From Rhizophagus irregularis (lineage: Eukaryota > Glomeromycota > Glomeromycetes > Glomerales > Glomeraceae), in contig NC_089454.1 of NCBI RefSeq assembly GCF_026210795.1, positions 124,001-188,000 on the forward strand: a stretch of DNA of 64,000 bases, read 5' to 3'. Positions 19,255 to 54,710 of this stretch are shown piece by piece. Positions within the stretch are counted from its first letter, which is position 1. Every line of letters begins with the position of its first letter. The position numbers and the translations under genes were made by a program. The notes under the pieces are model-generated. The model did not search any database, was not told the origin of the DNA, and saw only the letters and a list, made by a program, of their open reading frames with translations.

Positions 19255-22200
19255 CTAATCTTTTGAAATTTCAGCTATATCCTTATCTCTATCTATAATA
19301 CAATATTTATTTCCTAATGGAAAAAAGCCAACACAACAATCAATAGCTGATACTCTTATAAAATCATAATAACTAAATTCACTAAATAATAATACTCCTA
19401 CATTATCTTCAGTAACTGGTTTTGTCCACTGAATATACGCTAACATTTCTTTTTGATCATTAAATTCATATAAAAAAAGAATTCAATAATTCCATAAAAA
19501 GTTTTTGTTACAAATTCAGATTCACGATATTTGAAATTCGCCCATTTATCAACTTCAATTTCCGTACCTAAAAAATATATAAAATAAAAATATTGTAATT
19601 TATTATAATTAATAAACACTACAATAATATATAAAACTGGAATATTTACTTTTACAGTATGATTAATTCTTGCCCAATCATTATTCTTATTAATCCATTT
19701 TGATCCAATAAAATATTTATTTTTGGTTAACATCCGTCCATACATTATACCTTCTTTTGGTAAACTCTAAATAAATTAATAGTTAATATATTTAAAAATA
19801 GTTGAAAATTAAAATATGATAATAATATTTAATCAAACTGTACTTACATTTAAATTTAAATCAGTTATATTATATGATGTTGATAAATTTTCTTTTATTT
19901 TTTTAAGTTGAATTTGTGCAAGAATATGTTTTTTAGTAGGAAAATAAAATTCTTCAAAATAATATTCATCAGTATATATTAAATGCTGAGTATACTGCTT
20001 TGGAGATGATTTTGATAAAAAAACATGTTGATAAATTTCATGATAAGGGAGATGGTTAAATAATTCCATAAGATATACGTTATTAATAATATTTTTATAG
20101 GGATGTAAACGTGATTTTGCCAATGGAATTAACATTCCGCATATACGCTCCATGGGAAACTGCCAAGTGGCCCAACAAGGACCTGTATTTCTAATACTAT
20201 CAGTTACATGTAATAAGTAATGAAAACAAAGTTTCATTGCACTGATATTTTCTTTAATACCGCCATAATATTCTCTACAAATAAAATAAAGTAATAAAAA
20301 TATTAATTTAAAATATTATAATGAAATATAGTAAATATTTTGCATTAAATAATATTATTAATTTTTTTTAAAAATTAATTAAATAAATTAATGTATACTT
20401 ACTTTTCGTAATGCTTATAAAAATTTAATAATAAAATTTTAATTTCTGATATATCTTCTTCAAATAAACATAATTTTTTACATAATCTAACTGCTTTAAC
20501 AAATAAAGCCCAACCTTCATAATATTTTATTGGAAGCTTATCTTTTAACAAAGGTAAGGAATACATAATAATCCAGGCCATCCATTCTTCTGCCTTATAA
20601 CTATTATAATAAAGAGTAATATTACGAGGTGGGCGTCCAAGATAAGATGGAATCATTTTACGAGCTGTATGCATTAGATTTCCAATTTCGGTCCATATAG
20701 TTTTATTAAGTATATATGGTTTATTACTATTTTCGCCAACATTTTTGAAAAATACACCAAACCAATGCTTAACCATATATTTTGCAACATTTTCAAACAT
20801 TAGGTGCATTATATCTAATGCAAAAGAAGATGGAAATTTGATTGAAGGTAGATCATATAATATACTTTGATTTTTTATTCCTGATATTATAGTTAATATA
20901 TATTATTATTAGATAGTATATTTATTATAATAGATTAATAAAAACTTACCATAATTTCGTTGTAAAGATTCAATTGCTTGTTGTGTTGTTATACAATTTA
21001 AATTTCGTATCATTTTTTCATATTCTTCATGTGATCTTAAGGGTAAATTATTTGCATCGTAGCTCATTAAATTATTGGATCCTATCGGAGGAATGGTAGA
21101 AAAGTATACATGTTTTACACAGATTCCTTTAATATTACAATAGCGACATCCCTTATATGAATTATGGCCAGTAAAACACATTAGTTTTGTCAGGCCAGGT
21201 GTATCACCCGACCATGACAAAACATGTGCTTTTAAAATAAAATGATTCTTGGTATTGCCATCTATACAGTCAGTACCTCCTTTATAAGATAAAAGATTTT
21301 AATTAAAAATAGTTTAATTATTTAATTACATTATAATTATTATAATTGTAAATAAAACTTAACTGGCTAATTCCTTAAGTTCATCAACTATTGGATTCAT
21401 GAATGAGTTAAAATCTTTTGGCTCCTTTGGTCCAGGAATTATTGATGTAATTAATAAATTTTCCTTAAGTACCCGTTTTTCTGGTGAAAGATTTGCATTA
21501 ATAAATAATAATATCCAGCAAGTTTCAGTTTTTTGATGAAAGATCTGATAACCATCTACAGAGCCAGTTAAAGCAATATCATGCTCGTCTTGAAAATATC
21601 CTATTTTCAAAAGATCTAAATAACATTTTCCATCAAATACATCTCCTATTTTACCATCTTCGCCAAATCCATTACGTGTTGTGTATATATATCGATAACG
21701 TAACTCATTTGCACGATTTGGATTTTCATATTGTATTTTTAAACGCTTTATAAGGGAAAAACACGCAAATTGGTAACGTGGTTTTTTTTTTTGATCATAC
21801 CTAGATTCATTGCAATAAGGACATAGCATTTCATTCTTAAATTGTCCTGTATATGCACAACAGGAATTAATACACATATCAATCCACTGTGGTTCAGTAT
21901 TTACCAATTTTTTTAATGTTTTTTTTATTTGATAAATACTGATTGAAATATTGCTTGCTCTCATGATCTGATTCAATGCGTTATCAGTTAAATTGCATCG
22001 AACTTTAATTTCAAAAAGTCGTAATGCTTGTGCCAAGTCTTGAGATATATTTAATTTAAAGTCATCTATATAAGTTGAAATTTCGTTAGCAATACTATAT
22101 AAGCTATTATTTAAATATAATATAAAGATATAAATCAAAGCTTACTATTATTTAAGTCGTCCGTAAATGATGTTTCTTGTGCATCATAATTATTATATTC

Positions 22201-49009: not shown

Positions 49010-52000
49010 ATGATGACGATGAGAAGTAATTGTAAAGAAAGCATGCGTTGTATATTATTTATTTATTTGTTATTACATTTGATAGTATTACCAGCATATG
49101 TTGCAGCAGCAGTGGAATATCGTTCGCTTGATGGTTCCAATAATAATATTGCAGAACCAAAAGCTGGAACTCCTAACGTTCCTTTTTTTCGTCAAAAACC
49201 ACATGATGCAAACTATGCTGGGGATAACAGTGAAATGGTTTCTTCTCCAGGAAATTACAATTACAACCCCAATGAAGTAGTTCCAAAATGTAAGGACTTA
49301 ATACCAAAAGGAATGTTTCCTTTACCAAGATGTATTAGTGATGTATTAGACGGTTACCAGACAACAGCAAAAGATGCATTCTCTTGGGATTTTATTGACT
49401 CATTTAAATCAAAAAGAAAAGTTTCTCACATGGTATGCACTTCTTACGTGAATCTATAATTTTCTGGAGGATCTTCATTAATAGAAAACATTTTGGTTTA
49501 CTAGATAACATTTTGGGGACAATTTATGGCCTTTGACATTGCATCATCTCAATTTACAGGAGAAAATTTGCCTACTGGAATTATCATTCCAAGCGACGAT
49601 GCTGAATATTTATCTAGTATATCGGGAACGACAGCTCCTCTTAATGAAGTAAGATAATCACGTGTCTATGGTGTATTGGTTTTTTAGGTATACTGCGCCA
49701 TGTCCGTCAATATTAATTATCATCCTTTAGAATGCCTTAGCATTTAATCGATCAAATCCAAAATCTCGCCAAGGTACTAATGGAGCAACCTCATTTGTCG
49801 ACGCGAGCACTATTTATGGAATCGATCAAACTAAACTTGAACAAGAATTGCGCGATTTTGGTAATAGAGGAAAATTAAAATTGCGATACACGGATACTCC
49901 GGATGGTCAATTTGGGTATCCACCAACAGGTAACATAAAATAGTACTTTTATTAAATTCAAAAAATAACGAATAATAATTATTTCTTCTATAAATTGTAG
50001 ATGCAAATGGGGATTATATTTTAGGATTTGCGCCAAAACGAAGTGCAAATTTGTTTACGCATATGATTCATACTATATTTCTTAGAGAACATAATCGTCG
50101 ATGTGATGAATTGTATGCAATACATCAAGATGAATGGGATGATGAAATGTATTTTCAAGAAGCAAGAAGATGGGTTATTGCTCTTATTCAAAAGATAACA
50201 TACAGAGAATATCGTAAGTGAAAGCATTCATCTTATCCCAGAAATTTTAATTATAACGCAAACGCAATATCATATTTTTATAGTTAGTATCATTTTGGGA
50301 GCCCCTCTTTTGCCATATACCAAATATAATCCGGATCTCGTTCCAGGTAAAATTTTATATGTATTATTTGATTTATTATTCTAACAAAAATTTTATTCAC
50401 AAACCATAATAAATAATATTAAAAAGGTTTAGAAACCTTTTTCACGACTGTAACAATGAAATATGGACATTCTGAAGTCAGGTACAAATTATCTTTTATT
50501 ATATTTTTTTTATATTAAAAAGTTATTATCTTTTTTATAAATTTTTTTTTATTAGTGACTTTTACACAATTGTCGATAACGACGGACAAGTATTGAACAC
50601 GCTACCATTAAGCGCAATTCAAACACCACTCCTGATGGAGAGTTTTAATATTCCTGTTATAGCTTCATCACTTTCTTTACAAAGGTAAATATACGGTAAT
50701 ATTTTCTAATTTACTATCTCAATATTTATAACATCACATGATTTGTTTTATTATAAAGACAAGAGGAAGTAGACATCTTTTATACTGAAATGATGAGAGG
50801 CTTCAGATTTCCTACCGGTGATATTAATGATATTGCTAGTATCGACCATCTTCGTGTTCGTGATCGAGGAATTCCTTTGTATAATGATGTTAGAGATGCT
50901 TATGGGTTACCACGCGTTGAAAAGTTTTCAGATATTACAAACAATACAGTAGCTCAAGCGCGTCTACAAGAAACTTACTCAACTGTAGATTCTGTTGAAG
51001 CATTGGTTGGAGCTCTTGCTGAAGATCATCTTGTGGGTTCAAATTTTGGACCCTTGATACTTGCAAGCATGAAAGAACAGGTATATTAATTTTTTTAAAA
51101 AATCGAGTGAATATTATTTCGTTTACATTTTTATTTTATTTTATGTTAGTGGGGATTGATTCGCGATTCTGATAGATTTTGGTATGAATCTCCGGGAAGT
51201 GGATTTACCATCAGTGAAATCAATCAGATTAATAATATCACATGGCGTGATGTTCTTACAAAAAATGTTCCCGCTAGTTTCTCAATTCCTGGAAATCTTT
51301 GGTTTGTTCAACCGGTATCGACATTTGGAACCACAAACATCATTGATAATCCAGCTCCGGATTATCCAAGATTAAATTTCTTAAGATTTAGCGATGTTTA
51401 TGAAATTCGATGGAAAATTGATGGGGATAATATCCAATTCCTTCTTACTATGCTAAGTAACAATGCATGGTTTGGTTTAGGATTTAATTCAGATGGTATT
51501 GCATATTTTACAAATTTTTCTAAACTCTCGAATCATCAGACCTTATCTAAAAAAAAAAATGATTTAATTTATTAAGACAATGGCATGATAGGTGCCGATA
51601 TAGTGTTGGCACGAACGGTTGACTCTGCAAACATAGAAATAGCTAATTATAAGTCTGCTGGATATCAACCACCAGTTAAAGATGAAAAAAACCAGTTTAT
51701 TAAGTTAATAAGATTTAATGTCTCAAGTGTTTCCACGCAAGTTGAATTCAGTCGTCCATTAGCTGCCCCGGACAGAAGGCCTATTACCAATAATCCTACA
51801 ACATGTAAGTAATTTCTGAATAATTTTCTTCTAATTCATAAATTTTTTCTTATATTTCTTATCATTAAATTAGTGATTTACGCTTGGAACCCTGGTAGCA
51901 ATGGACTTTCATATCATGGAGGTAATCGTGGAAGTTTGAAAATCAATTTCTTTTCTTCAACAATTGCACAATCTGCTGAAACTAAAAACAAGTTAACAAG

Positions 52001-54710
52001 ATTGTTGCATGGTTTAGCGATGTTTGTGACTTGGAGGTTTGTTTTTTGATTTATATTTGATTTCTCTTTTTATTTAATCTTATTTAATCTTTATATTGAT
52101 TTACTTTTATTTTACATGACGTATCTAGTGTTCTATTTCCATGTAAGAATAATTAATATATATGTTCTTTTTAAAAAGAGATGAATTTTGATTGACAATC
52201 TCCTCTGATTTCTAAATTTCATAGTATCAGTTTTTATCGTTCGTTACTGGAAACATGTTGATACATATTTATTTCAACATCGAAACATGCAAATTGTTGG
52301 TGGAGTTTCCGTGTCAACTTTCGGAGCTGCGGCAATGGCAACTGCAGATTATCAAAAAAGATCAATCCATGGATTGTATGGTTCATTATAAATAATTATT
52401 AAAAAATTCTTCAAAATGTGTTCTTAATTAAATAAATTATATTTTAGGGTTGGCATATCAATTTATACAATCGTATTCGCTCAAATTGGATTAGGCTTTA
52501 TAGCTATTTGGGGTCTCGCTCACCTTGAATCGGCCAACCGCGGTATAATGCGTGGAATCAGGATGGCGCACTTTATATTAGGATCTTCGTTGATCATTGT
52601 CGCTTGGTAAACAAATTTTCATTTGTGCATATATATTTTTAATTTGAAAAAAAGGAATTAATTTTATTTTATTAGGGTTAATATTTATCTCGGAATTATC
52701 CAGTTTGGTGGAAATATGATGTGGAGAATCGCGTATTTAATATGGATAGGTTTGTATTATTTAATTGTTATTAAAATTAGATACATATTAACATATATTT
52801 TTATAGGTTTTACGTTAATAGCATTTATTGGAGGGGAATATTGGTATAATTTTAGAAATGGAAATTACTTTTATCGCAAAAGTGATCTTGAAACCAAACA
52901 AAAACGCATTCATGAGAAAATTCCCGCTGATGTTTATGAAAGATTGCCAGTCGTCACCTGGGATGTAAGTCTTATATGAGATTTAATTTTAAATATCTAT
53001 TGATAAAATAAAAACTAATTATAGATATATATATTTTAGGATGTTAATACAAGAATTGCAAGTGGTGCTCAATTAGTTGTTGCTGAAGGATTATTATTTG
53101 ATATTCGAAAATGGGTAAACTAATTTTCTTTAACAAAAAATTTATTTATTTACTATTTATTTATTTGATTTTTATGTCTTTTTTAGATAAGAATTCACCC
53201 TGGAGGTGCAAAAATTTTACACCGTGTTATTGGAACTGATATTACCAACGATTTTTTCTTAGATACTTCAGATCAGTCAAAGTTTACATTTGATCAAAAA
53301 GATAGTGAAAACCGCCATTCAATGATTCAATATAATACACTTAAAAAATATGATGACACATCTAGTTTTGATGATTCTAAGCAAAAGAAAGCAGTACTAA
53401 AGAGACGTTCAATAGCAAACGTTTTTGATGTAATTAATAGTTCATCATTTAAAAATTCTAGAGTGGCAACACATCACCATTCAACGTTTGCGACAACAAA
53501 ATTAGCATCTATGGTAATAGCTAAAGTAAATGAATATTCTGATGATTTACACAAAATTCAACAAGTTGAAAGTGAACATAATCCGCATGTTTTTAAAAGA
53601 TATATATTGGTTAATAAGGAAATTGTATCAAGAAGTGATGCTCGAAGACCCGTAATTAAACTTACATTTCAAGTTATTAATTATGAACAATTACCAGAAT
53701 TCTTGCCAGGAGATTATATTGAAATTTTATGTCATATTAAAGGGCAAGTACTATTACGATCTTATACACCACTTCAATCTGATAAAGAAAAATGTTTCTC
53801 GATTATAATTAGAGTTTATGAAGAAGGACTAATGTCTAGACATTTAGTAAGTATGATATATTTAAAAAAAAAAAAACTTTATTATCACATTATTAAACAA
53901 AAATTTACATTTTTTTATTTCAATTTTCAAGATGAAACAATTAGTTGGATTTGAAATTAAAGTCCGTGGTCCATTTGATATTAGTAACCAAATATCTCCA
54001 GTTCTTAGTCCTTCAAGTCCTAATTCTTCAAATCTTAGTCCTTCAAACCTTAATCCTTCACATTTAAGTAGATATTTAAGTAGATATTATGAGCCATCTC
54101 CAAGACATATATTATTGAATTCCTTATCAAATGATAAATGTTGGGATGTATTATTTATGATTGCAGGAGGAACTGGAATAACTCCTATGTTACAACTAGT
54201 AAGTTTAATAGACATAAAAGTTTTTTTATTACCGAGCTATAAATAATTCTAATTCATTATTTATTATAGATAAAATACCATTTAAATTACCTAAATCAAT
54301 CACCTAATAGAAACTTCAAATTGTTTTTACTATTTGCAAATGAAACAATCTCGGATATATTTTATTTTAAATATTTAGAACATCTAGTAGCAGCAAGTAA
54401 TGGAAAATTAAAAATAACATATATACTTACACGACCACCATCAAATTGGGAAGAATTAAGCGGACATATAAATGAAGATATATTATGTAAATGGCTTTCA
54501 AATAATTATATACCAGATGGTTTAGATCAAGTTACTGAAAATGAAAATTCTACATATTATATGAAAAGATATATGCAAGCTTTAATACAAGATTCCAAAC
54601 ATACTATTAAACTAATTACATGTGGGCCTCCTTTAATGATTGATTCCATTGAAGAATCTTTAAATAATATTGGATTTCCTATTAATGATAAAGCCATTTT
54701 TATTAGATAA
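49010..54710 (+). CDS. Secreted peroxidase / DOMON / cytochrome b561 / cytochrome b5 / FAD-NAD(P)H reductase fusion
   Basis: Twenty exons join to 4,284 nt (1,427 aa) with every junction in frame. Start ATG 49,010; signal peptide CILFIYLLLHLIVLPAYVAA. Residues ~70-575: animal-type haem peroxidase (SFVDASTIYGID; LFTHMIHTIFLREHNRRCDE; proximal-His motif MKYGHSEV about 358; HLRVRDRGIPLYND). The usual WGQFLDHD reads WGQFMAFD (about 144), so the distal Asp-His pair is lost. Residues ~585-700: DOMON (RFSDVYEIRW; AWFGLGFNSD; GADIVLART). Residues ~740-930: cytochrome b561-type helices with spaced His (LLHGLAMF; SIHGLVGI; RMAHFILG). Residues ~948-990: cytochrome b5 core with HPGG (about 976). Residues ~1090-1427: ferredoxin-reductase module with FAD motif RSYTPL (about 1163), AGGTGITPM (about 1269) and CGPPLM (about 1398). 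Expected topology: reductase cytosolic, peroxidase outside. Exon 12 is only 14 nt. Confidence 0.9.
52129..52142 (+). other. 14-nt microexon of the peroxidase-reductase gene
   Basis: TGTTCTATTTCCAT lies between an acceptor (TATCTAG) and a donor (GTAAGA). Inclusion restores frame and gives SVLFPLSVFIVRYW across a membrane helix. It is easily missed by automatic annotation, which would then split the gene. Confidence 0.8.

Follow-up and report, generated by a model that had tools for sequence, protein, structure and literature searches.

A candidate transmembrane electron exporter with a peroxidase-like head in Rhizophagus irregularis, shared by Glomeromycotina and chytrids

In a 64,000-nucleotide stretch of the Rhizophagus irregularis genome (contig NC_089454.1, positions 124,001 to 188,000; hereafter the window), we find a predicted fusion gene of 20 exons on the plus strand (49010..54710; all coordinates of the gene given below are on this strand). 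Its 1,427-amino-acid product joins a peroxidase-like head, a DOMON domain, a cytochrome b561 membrane core, a cytochrome b5 and a reductase that binds flavin adenine dinucleotide (FAD) and nicotinamide adenine dinucleotide (NAD). The head has the peroxidase fold with its proximal haem side and calcium site, and is without the distal catalytic residues. Based on this architecture and on residue conservation among relatives, we consider it reasonably probable that the fusion protein uses NAD(P)H to export electrons across the membrane through a chain of the CYBDOM type and bears a non-peroxidase outer head.

All 19 introns of the gene model are bounded by GT and AG, measure 57-92 bases and, once removed, leave a single reading frame of 1,427 codons and a stop codon (GC content 33.8% in exons, 17.9% in introns). 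Modules were called by a Pfam scan of the spliced protein, which places An_peroxidase at residues 37-560 (4.6e-92), DOMON at 599-712 (1.5e-17), Cyt-b5 at 945-995 (1.3e-6, profile positions 1-51 of 74 only), FAD_binding_6 at 1125-1207 (1.7e-11) and NAD_binding_1 at 1268-1407 (9.2e-16). The domain search proposed with an earlier, sequence-only reading of this DNA thus returned the peroxidase, DOMON, Cyt-b5, FAD and NAD domains but left Cytochrom_B561 below the cut-off in this protein. A putative signal peptide (residues 1-34, 49010..49111) contains a hydrophobic stretch at residues 14-32 and would be cleaved shortly before the Pfam peroxidase match, which begins at 37.

As the gene model was predicted from sequence alone, wrong exon calls might have fused two adjacent genes. 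Such an artefact is unlikely because the module junctions lie within single open exons: exon 9 holds both the peroxidase end and the DOMON start, exon 11 runs from DOMON into the first membrane helix, exon 16 spans the last membrane helix to the start of cytochrome b5, exon 18 links cytochrome b5 with the FAD domain, and exon 19 links FAD with NAD. A database protein of R. irregularis (P0001, 20 member sequences) matches over its full length, is equally long and differs by 4 substitutions, and relatives share the module order, the absence of which from close relatives would have spoken for an artefact. On the within-exon junctions and the relatives we ruled out two adjacent genes, an explanation that we regard as exceedingly improbable. 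The sequence-only reading had proposed 20 exons closing in one frame and five modules in a sensible topology within one gene, and the rebuilt model agrees with it on both.

The peroxidase-like domain (residues 37-560, exons 1-9, 49118..51281; Pfam) was compared with its relatives over an alignment of 50 proteins (P0001-P0050), in which residues were counted in readable rows only. According to the accessible part of PMC4420034, the marks of the superfamily are G-Q-x-x-D-H-D, R-x-x-E and a proximal His paired with an Asn. The distal motif of the window protein reads WGQFMAFD (49511..49537), that is GQFMAFD against G-Q-x-x-D-H-D, with Ala150 and Phe151 in place of the Asp and His of active peroxidases. 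K268-R-S-A271 (50036..50047) stands at the place of R-x-x-E and has lost the Glu; the loss of the Arg is uncertain because Arg269 adjoins its aligned place. Among the relatives the distal His is found in 0/39 rows, the distal Asp in 0/39 and the ester Glu in 0/46. The distal His position is occupied by Phe (n = 18), Met (n = 14), Leu (n = 2), Ser (n = 2) and Ile, Ala or Thr (one each), with a gap in 11. The sequence-only reading had suggested that electrons could flow to an external peroxidase-like domain; an electron-fed peroxidase is not supported by the Glomeromycotina rows, where the counts are 0/37 for His, 0/37 for Asp and 0/43 for Glu. As distal His and Asp and the ester Glu are all missing, classical peroxidase turnover by the head seems unlikely.

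The proximal side is retained. The haem ligand His362 (50468..50470) is present in 43/43 rows, and in 32/32 readable Glomeromycotina rows; Arg441, near it, is present in 42/47. Its partner Asn is replaced by Asp in 45/47. The calcium loop T209-x-F-x-D-x-S215 (49788..49808) is kept as well, and of the calcium residues Asp152 stands in 38/39 rows and Asp213 in 49/49. A set of 83 bacterial genes, made up of the top 80 among 273 confirmed loci and three chosen plasmid genes, has the distal His in 70/70 readable rows (13 gaps), the Glu in 70/83 and Asp at the proximal Asn place in 10/82 readable rows. The place of the ester Glu, at first assigned to Asn272, falls at Ala271 in the bacterial alignment. 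The head fold was borne out by a fold search on relative P0034, whose rows span 19-563 and cover the head only. Judged from these residues, the head probably binds haem and is most likely not a peroxidase.

The DOMON domain (residues 599-712, 51396..51887; Pfam) carries the ligands Met635 (51585-51587) and, just past the Pfam match, His722 (51915-51917), which are 87 residues apart and conserved in 48/48 and 45/45 rows. The cytochrome b561 core (51984..52838, including a 14-base exon 12 at 52129-52142) has five membrane helices and four His residues, His753, His785, His815 and His858 (40/40, 40/42, 42/42 and 36/36 rows). All five helices appear in the model of P0034; a hydropathy scan of the window protein finds four above threshold, the second helix being weak. 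With an extracellular N-terminus, the five helices of the P0034 model place the C-terminus in the cytosol. Cytochrom_B561 matches 16 of 32 chosen relatives (E <= 0.01), and a profile of 13 chosen relatives matches the solved b561 structures 4o6y (5.6e-4) and 5zle (0.02). Single pieces of the window protein gave no match for DOMON and one chance match for b561 (E 1.8) in the PDB, and a plasmid search with the DOMON piece found none. The membrane core resembles that of CYBDOM metal reductases, unlike that of gp91-type oxidases.

Cytochrome b5 was part of the sequence-only reading and is indeed present, but its interruption by an insert had gone unseen. The first part (52956..53255) contains the HPGG ligand His976, conserved in 46/46 rows, but is not followed by the stretch that normally supplies the second ligand. 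An insert of about 70 residues (53256..53465), which has a low predicted local distance difference test score (pLDDT) in the P0034 model, separates it from the second part, HHHSTFATTKLASMV (53466..53528), with the second ligand His1070 (48/48 rows) inside a conserved HxHSxxA motif. H-S-x-x-A occurs in 48/48 readable members and the further His two places upstream in 46. The ordinary spacing between the two ligand His residues of cytochrome b5 is 24; here it is 94, and it ranges over 50-108 residues where both patterns matched, apart from one negative value due to a chance pattern match. We read the domain as a cytochrome b5 divided by an insert whose length is greatest in Glomeromycotina, since a single Pfam match in P0082 covers both motifs (927-1001, profile 9-73) and the b5 of P0110 is uninterrupted (1369-1432, profile 10-73). 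His976 and His1070 would then pair as axial ligands. His1016, considered as the second ligand, is not conserved and was superseded by His1070.

The reductase comprises an FAD domain (53643..53976; Pfam) with the motif R1163-S-Y-T, whose FAD Arg is conserved in 47/47 rows, and an NAD(P)H domain (54145..54659; Pfam) with GGTGITP at 1271 and CGPP at 1399. NADH-cytochrome b5 reductases are the nearest solved proteins, and both their R-x-Y-T and GGTG motifs are present.

The architecture belongs, on sequence comparison, to a large family common to mycorrhizal fungi and chytrids. Each protein search scored some 8,000 candidates within a length limit, which bounds the range of the family seen here. 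The search with the full protein returned 61 proteins. P0001-P0047, except P0006, carry names of Glomeromycotina genera: Paraglomus and Entrophospora were looked up as such, and Rhizophagus, Funneliformis, Diversispora, Dentiscutata, Cetraspora, Scutellospora, Gigaspora and Acaulospora are genera that we take to belong there. P0048-P0050 are chytrids. Thirty-five of the 50 have all five precomputed Pfam domains (peroxidase, DOMON, Cyt-b5, FAD_binding_6 and NAD_binding_1); the remaining 15 are without one or more, and several of these are partial models. With the chytrid P0048 as query, 45 proteins were returned, of which 28 have chytrid-type genus names and 13 of those 28 all five domains. As precomputed domain lists carry no order, module order was taken from alignments and motif positions. 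Among the 32 chosen relatives (E <= 0.01), we count the peroxidase in 32, DOMON in 32, Cyt-b5 in 30, FAD in 28 and NAD in 26. The module order is shared by Glomeromycotina, and by chytrids too, and is not unique to the window gene.

Beyond the fungi, a search with the alga P0091 gave 1,381 matches. Most of the 120 listed are peroxidases without DOMON; also listed are proteins with peroxidase-DOMON-b561 from Scenedesmus, Tetradesmus and entries of EukProt or metagenomes, and a further chytrid with the full set (P0165). P0110 (EukProt) combines a peroxidase, three DOMON domains, a weak b561, b5, FAD and NAD. We observed that its three DOMON domains sit between the peroxidase and b561, and that it begins with an Spt4 domain, which may be a gene-model fusion. 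Among the algal, EukProt and metagenome proteins, P0085, P0091, P0103-P0107, P0111 and P0179 have peroxidase-DOMON(-b561) without a reductase, with the distal site intact in some and altered in others. In the metagenomic P0098 a peroxidase is fused with a reductase of the gp91 type (PF01794, FAD, NAD), and its precomputed domains include no EF-hand. Prokaryote genomes and IMG/VR, scanned with single proteins, yielded no confirmed relative, and a scan of eight long bacterial members found DOMON or b561 in none (E <= 0.001).

A midpoint-rooted FastTree of 37 chosen sequences groups the Glomeromycotina rows (support 1.0) and the chytrid rows (0.986). The split between fungi and the rest has a support of only 0.557, and a single origin therefore rests on the architecture more than on the tree. 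Several database names of relatives read 'heme peroxidase', and Mucoromycota proteomes contain animal-like haem peroxidases to which the consulted portion of PMC10629195 gives a peroxidase-P450 layout. The sequence-only reading knew of no description of this architecture, and among the titles and abstract openings listed from the open-licence literature none describes the module order. The occurrence of the family in chytrids argues against a role confined to symbiosis.

We searched the genome of R. irregularis itself (146.7 Mb, 32 contigs) with profiles and grouped the An_peroxidase matches by hand into eleven loci including the window. Eight of the ten outside loci (L105-L108, L110-L113) align with the family over the peroxidase, membrane and reductase parts and carry the module signatures, giving nine fusion loci with the window gene; L110 and L112 show DOMON only as short alignments plus ligand motifs. 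The other two (L109, L114) have peroxidase similarity only, or none. Four of the fusion genes (L105-L108) are clustered on contig 27 at approximately 1646-1707 kb, all on the minus strand. Given these loci and the Glomeromycotina and chytrid relatives, we dropped the idea of a unique or Rhizophagus-specific gene. A genome search for DOMON gave seven matches, all seven beside a peroxidase match, and was not exhaustive, as the C11 and C32 loci were missed. Three other b561 loci (L004, L005, L006) have no tblastn match to the window protein at E <= 1e-3. Five Ferric_reduct matches on contigs 3, 17, 30 and 32 indicate that gp91/FRE-type reductases coexist with the nine fusion loci.

The distal site is not altered in all relatives. 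Eighteen of 24 readable rows with chytrid-type names have a His one place earlier and mostly Leu at the His place (e.g. WGVMLHLD), and P0082 (Borealophlyctis) is the only one of the 24 with a true distal His, together with R-x-x-E. Both are also kept in P0165 (Powellomyces), a chytrid with the full domain set, and distal His, Arg and Glu are all retained in the metagenome or EukProt entries P0083, P0085 and P0179. P0110 and P0111 (Cymbomonas, a green alga, with Pfam peroxidase and DOMON) keep His and Arg without Glu; the distal His is altered in P0091, P0105 and P0107, and P0103 is unreadable there. As some chytrid, algal and metagenomic relatives keep the site, the ancestral head was probably active, with its activity probably lost more than once.

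From this layout we infer the flow of electrons, its direction, the acceptor and the role of the head as follows. Since the membrane part is followed by b5 and a b5 reductase, the donor is likely NADH: inside the cell it would reduce the FAD of the b5 reductase-type module, from which an electron would pass to the interrupted but haem-competent cytochrome b5, then to the inner and the outer b561 haem across the membrane, and on to the Met/His haem of the secreted DOMON. The DOMON haem would reduce an outside acceptor, for which ferric or cupric chelates, quinones or oxygen are the likeliest candidates. The fused reductase would replace the cytosolic ascorbate used by ordinary CYBDOM proteins; to our knowledge, fungi make little or no true ascorbate. 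In the superfamily, fewer haem ester bonds go with a lower potential, and DdPoxA, with one ester, lies at -0.276 V (PMC5787809, accessible part). By extrapolation, a very low potential is to be expected of a head without both ester residues, which makes it less likely as an ordinary electron sink, and we therefore place the electron exit at the DOMON haem. The head would most likely serve in positioning, or in acceptor or oxygen handling, and not as a peroxidase.

Several points weigh against the proposed exporter. Cytochrom_B561 scores only 0.014 (residues 753-878), the second b561 His is absent in 2 of 42 readable rows, the second b5 ligand is backed by conservation and the P0082 Pfam match while confidence in the P0034 model is low immediately ahead of it, and Asp1310, which we take to be a marker of NADH, is the sole pointer to NADH over NADPH. 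The chain might instead generate reactive oxygen, reducing O2 to superoxide or H2O2 outside the cell as a counterpart of DUOX (dual oxidase), with the head shaping the product or docking partners. We hold this to be possible but unlikely, as neither EF-hands nor a gp91-type core were found by Pfam in the window protein, separate Ferric_reduct genes would be at hand in the genome, and HYP1, a characterised CYBDOM protein, reduces metals in the published portions available. A related and bolder proposal, which we regard as doubtful, is that the head holds a five-coordinate haem (His/Met where Met replaces the distal His), is fed by the DOMON haem and handles extracellular O2 or NO; the family would then be a second, independently built dual-oxidase-like class that lost its distal His as DUOX did.

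Two further alternatives turn on the head itself. A head without haem, serving a metal reductase just for adhesion or partner binding, would fit the rebuilt distal pocket and the lost ester residues; the conservation of the proximal His and Arg441, hardly to be expected without haem, makes it quite improbable. Alternatively, the head could be an active peroxidase outside the cell that the membrane chain keeps reduced, spending NADH to remove H2O2. The relatives with distal His, Arg and Glu (P0082, P0083, P0085, P0165, P0179) or with His and Arg (P0110, P0111) speak for this reading, and theirs may be the ancestral state. We consider it highly improbable for the window protein, which shares the loss of distal His, Asp and Glu with every readable Glomeromycotina row; the distal His is also lost in 8/8 paralogous loci of the genome.

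Every module of the proposed exporter is known, and the chain looks like a CYBDOM protein plus a b5 reductase with a DUOX-like head. In the accessible text of PMC10784544 and PMC10784552, HYP1 uses cytosolic ascorbate to reduce Fe(III) and Cu(II) in oocytes and has the DOMON residues M90/H174; CRR has the same plan, with DOMON Met89/His180 and a C-terminus reported as cytosolic, and is an ascorbate-dependent ferric reductase by a section title. CYBDOM proteins (HYP1, CRR, SDR2) share the secreted DOMON Met/His pair, at a spacing in HYP1 and CRR close to the 87 residues found here, and a five-helix b561 core with four His, but are described in those sources as DOMON and b561 alone, without a peroxidase-like head, fused b5 or reductase. 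DUOX likewise has a secreted peroxidase-like head on a transmembrane chain with FAD/NAD(P)H domains, secretion of the window protein being predicted from its hydrophobic start; it differs in its gp91/ferric-reductase core and EF-hands, in place of which the fusion has DOMON, b561 and b5. The dual-oxidase-like layout built from different parts, as first proposed for this gene, is supported as regards the plan of the protein. In the window protein, the EF-hand family, PF01794 and the P450 family are all absent from Pfam matches at E <= 1. Two invertebrate DUOX rows have Glu at the distal His place and keep R-x-x-E and the aligned proximal His, differing from the consulted part of PMC4420034, which states the DUOX proximal His to be absent.

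The remaining likenesses are partial. The DOMON ferric reductases of Naegleria and stramenopiles (PMC3591440, in the part accessible) also combine an extracellular DOMON with a transmembrane reductase driven by NAD(P)H, but have an FRE core and no peroxidase head, b561 or b5. DdPoxA (in the source available) and the cyanobacterial peroxidase 8s6c share the head fold and proximal His/Arg, whereas they keep the distal His and ester Glu and have no membrane chain fused to them. NADH-cytochrome b5 reductase and cytochrome b5 share the FAD and NAD motifs and the b5 HPGG, while the b5 of the window protein is interrupted by an insert and tethered to b561. Fungal Ppo proteins (linoleate diol synthases) belong to the same peroxidase superfamily but carry a C-terminal P450 (PMC4420034, extracts), of which the window protein has none. 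The algal and metagenomic P0085, P0091, P0103, P0105 and P0107 have peroxidase-DOMON-b561 in identical order, yet Pfam finds no b5 or reductase in them; the distal site, unreadable in P0103, is intact in P0085 and altered in the other three.

Elsewhere in the window, we noted a ubiquitin gene at 1082-1462 (+; 2.5e-27), a deiodinase-like open frame at 1636-2520 (+; iodothyronine deiodinase domain PF00837, 5.9e-24, with SYTCP inside), and Transposase_21 with weak DUF4218 pieces at 19836-22141 (-), which suggest a CACTA-type element.

If the proposed exporter is correct, early-diverging fungi would possess a large family of NADH-wired transmembrane reductases, with nine loci in one genome, and a route to run a CYBDOM chain without ascorbate. 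It would also offer a comparison with dual oxidase, as a tethered peroxidase head that loses its catalytic His. One ferric reductase, RiFRE1, is named for mycorrhizal fungi in the accessible part of PMC4196481. Should the fusion proteins reduce iron or copper outside the hyphae, they would bear on the metal nutrition of mycorrhizal fungi.

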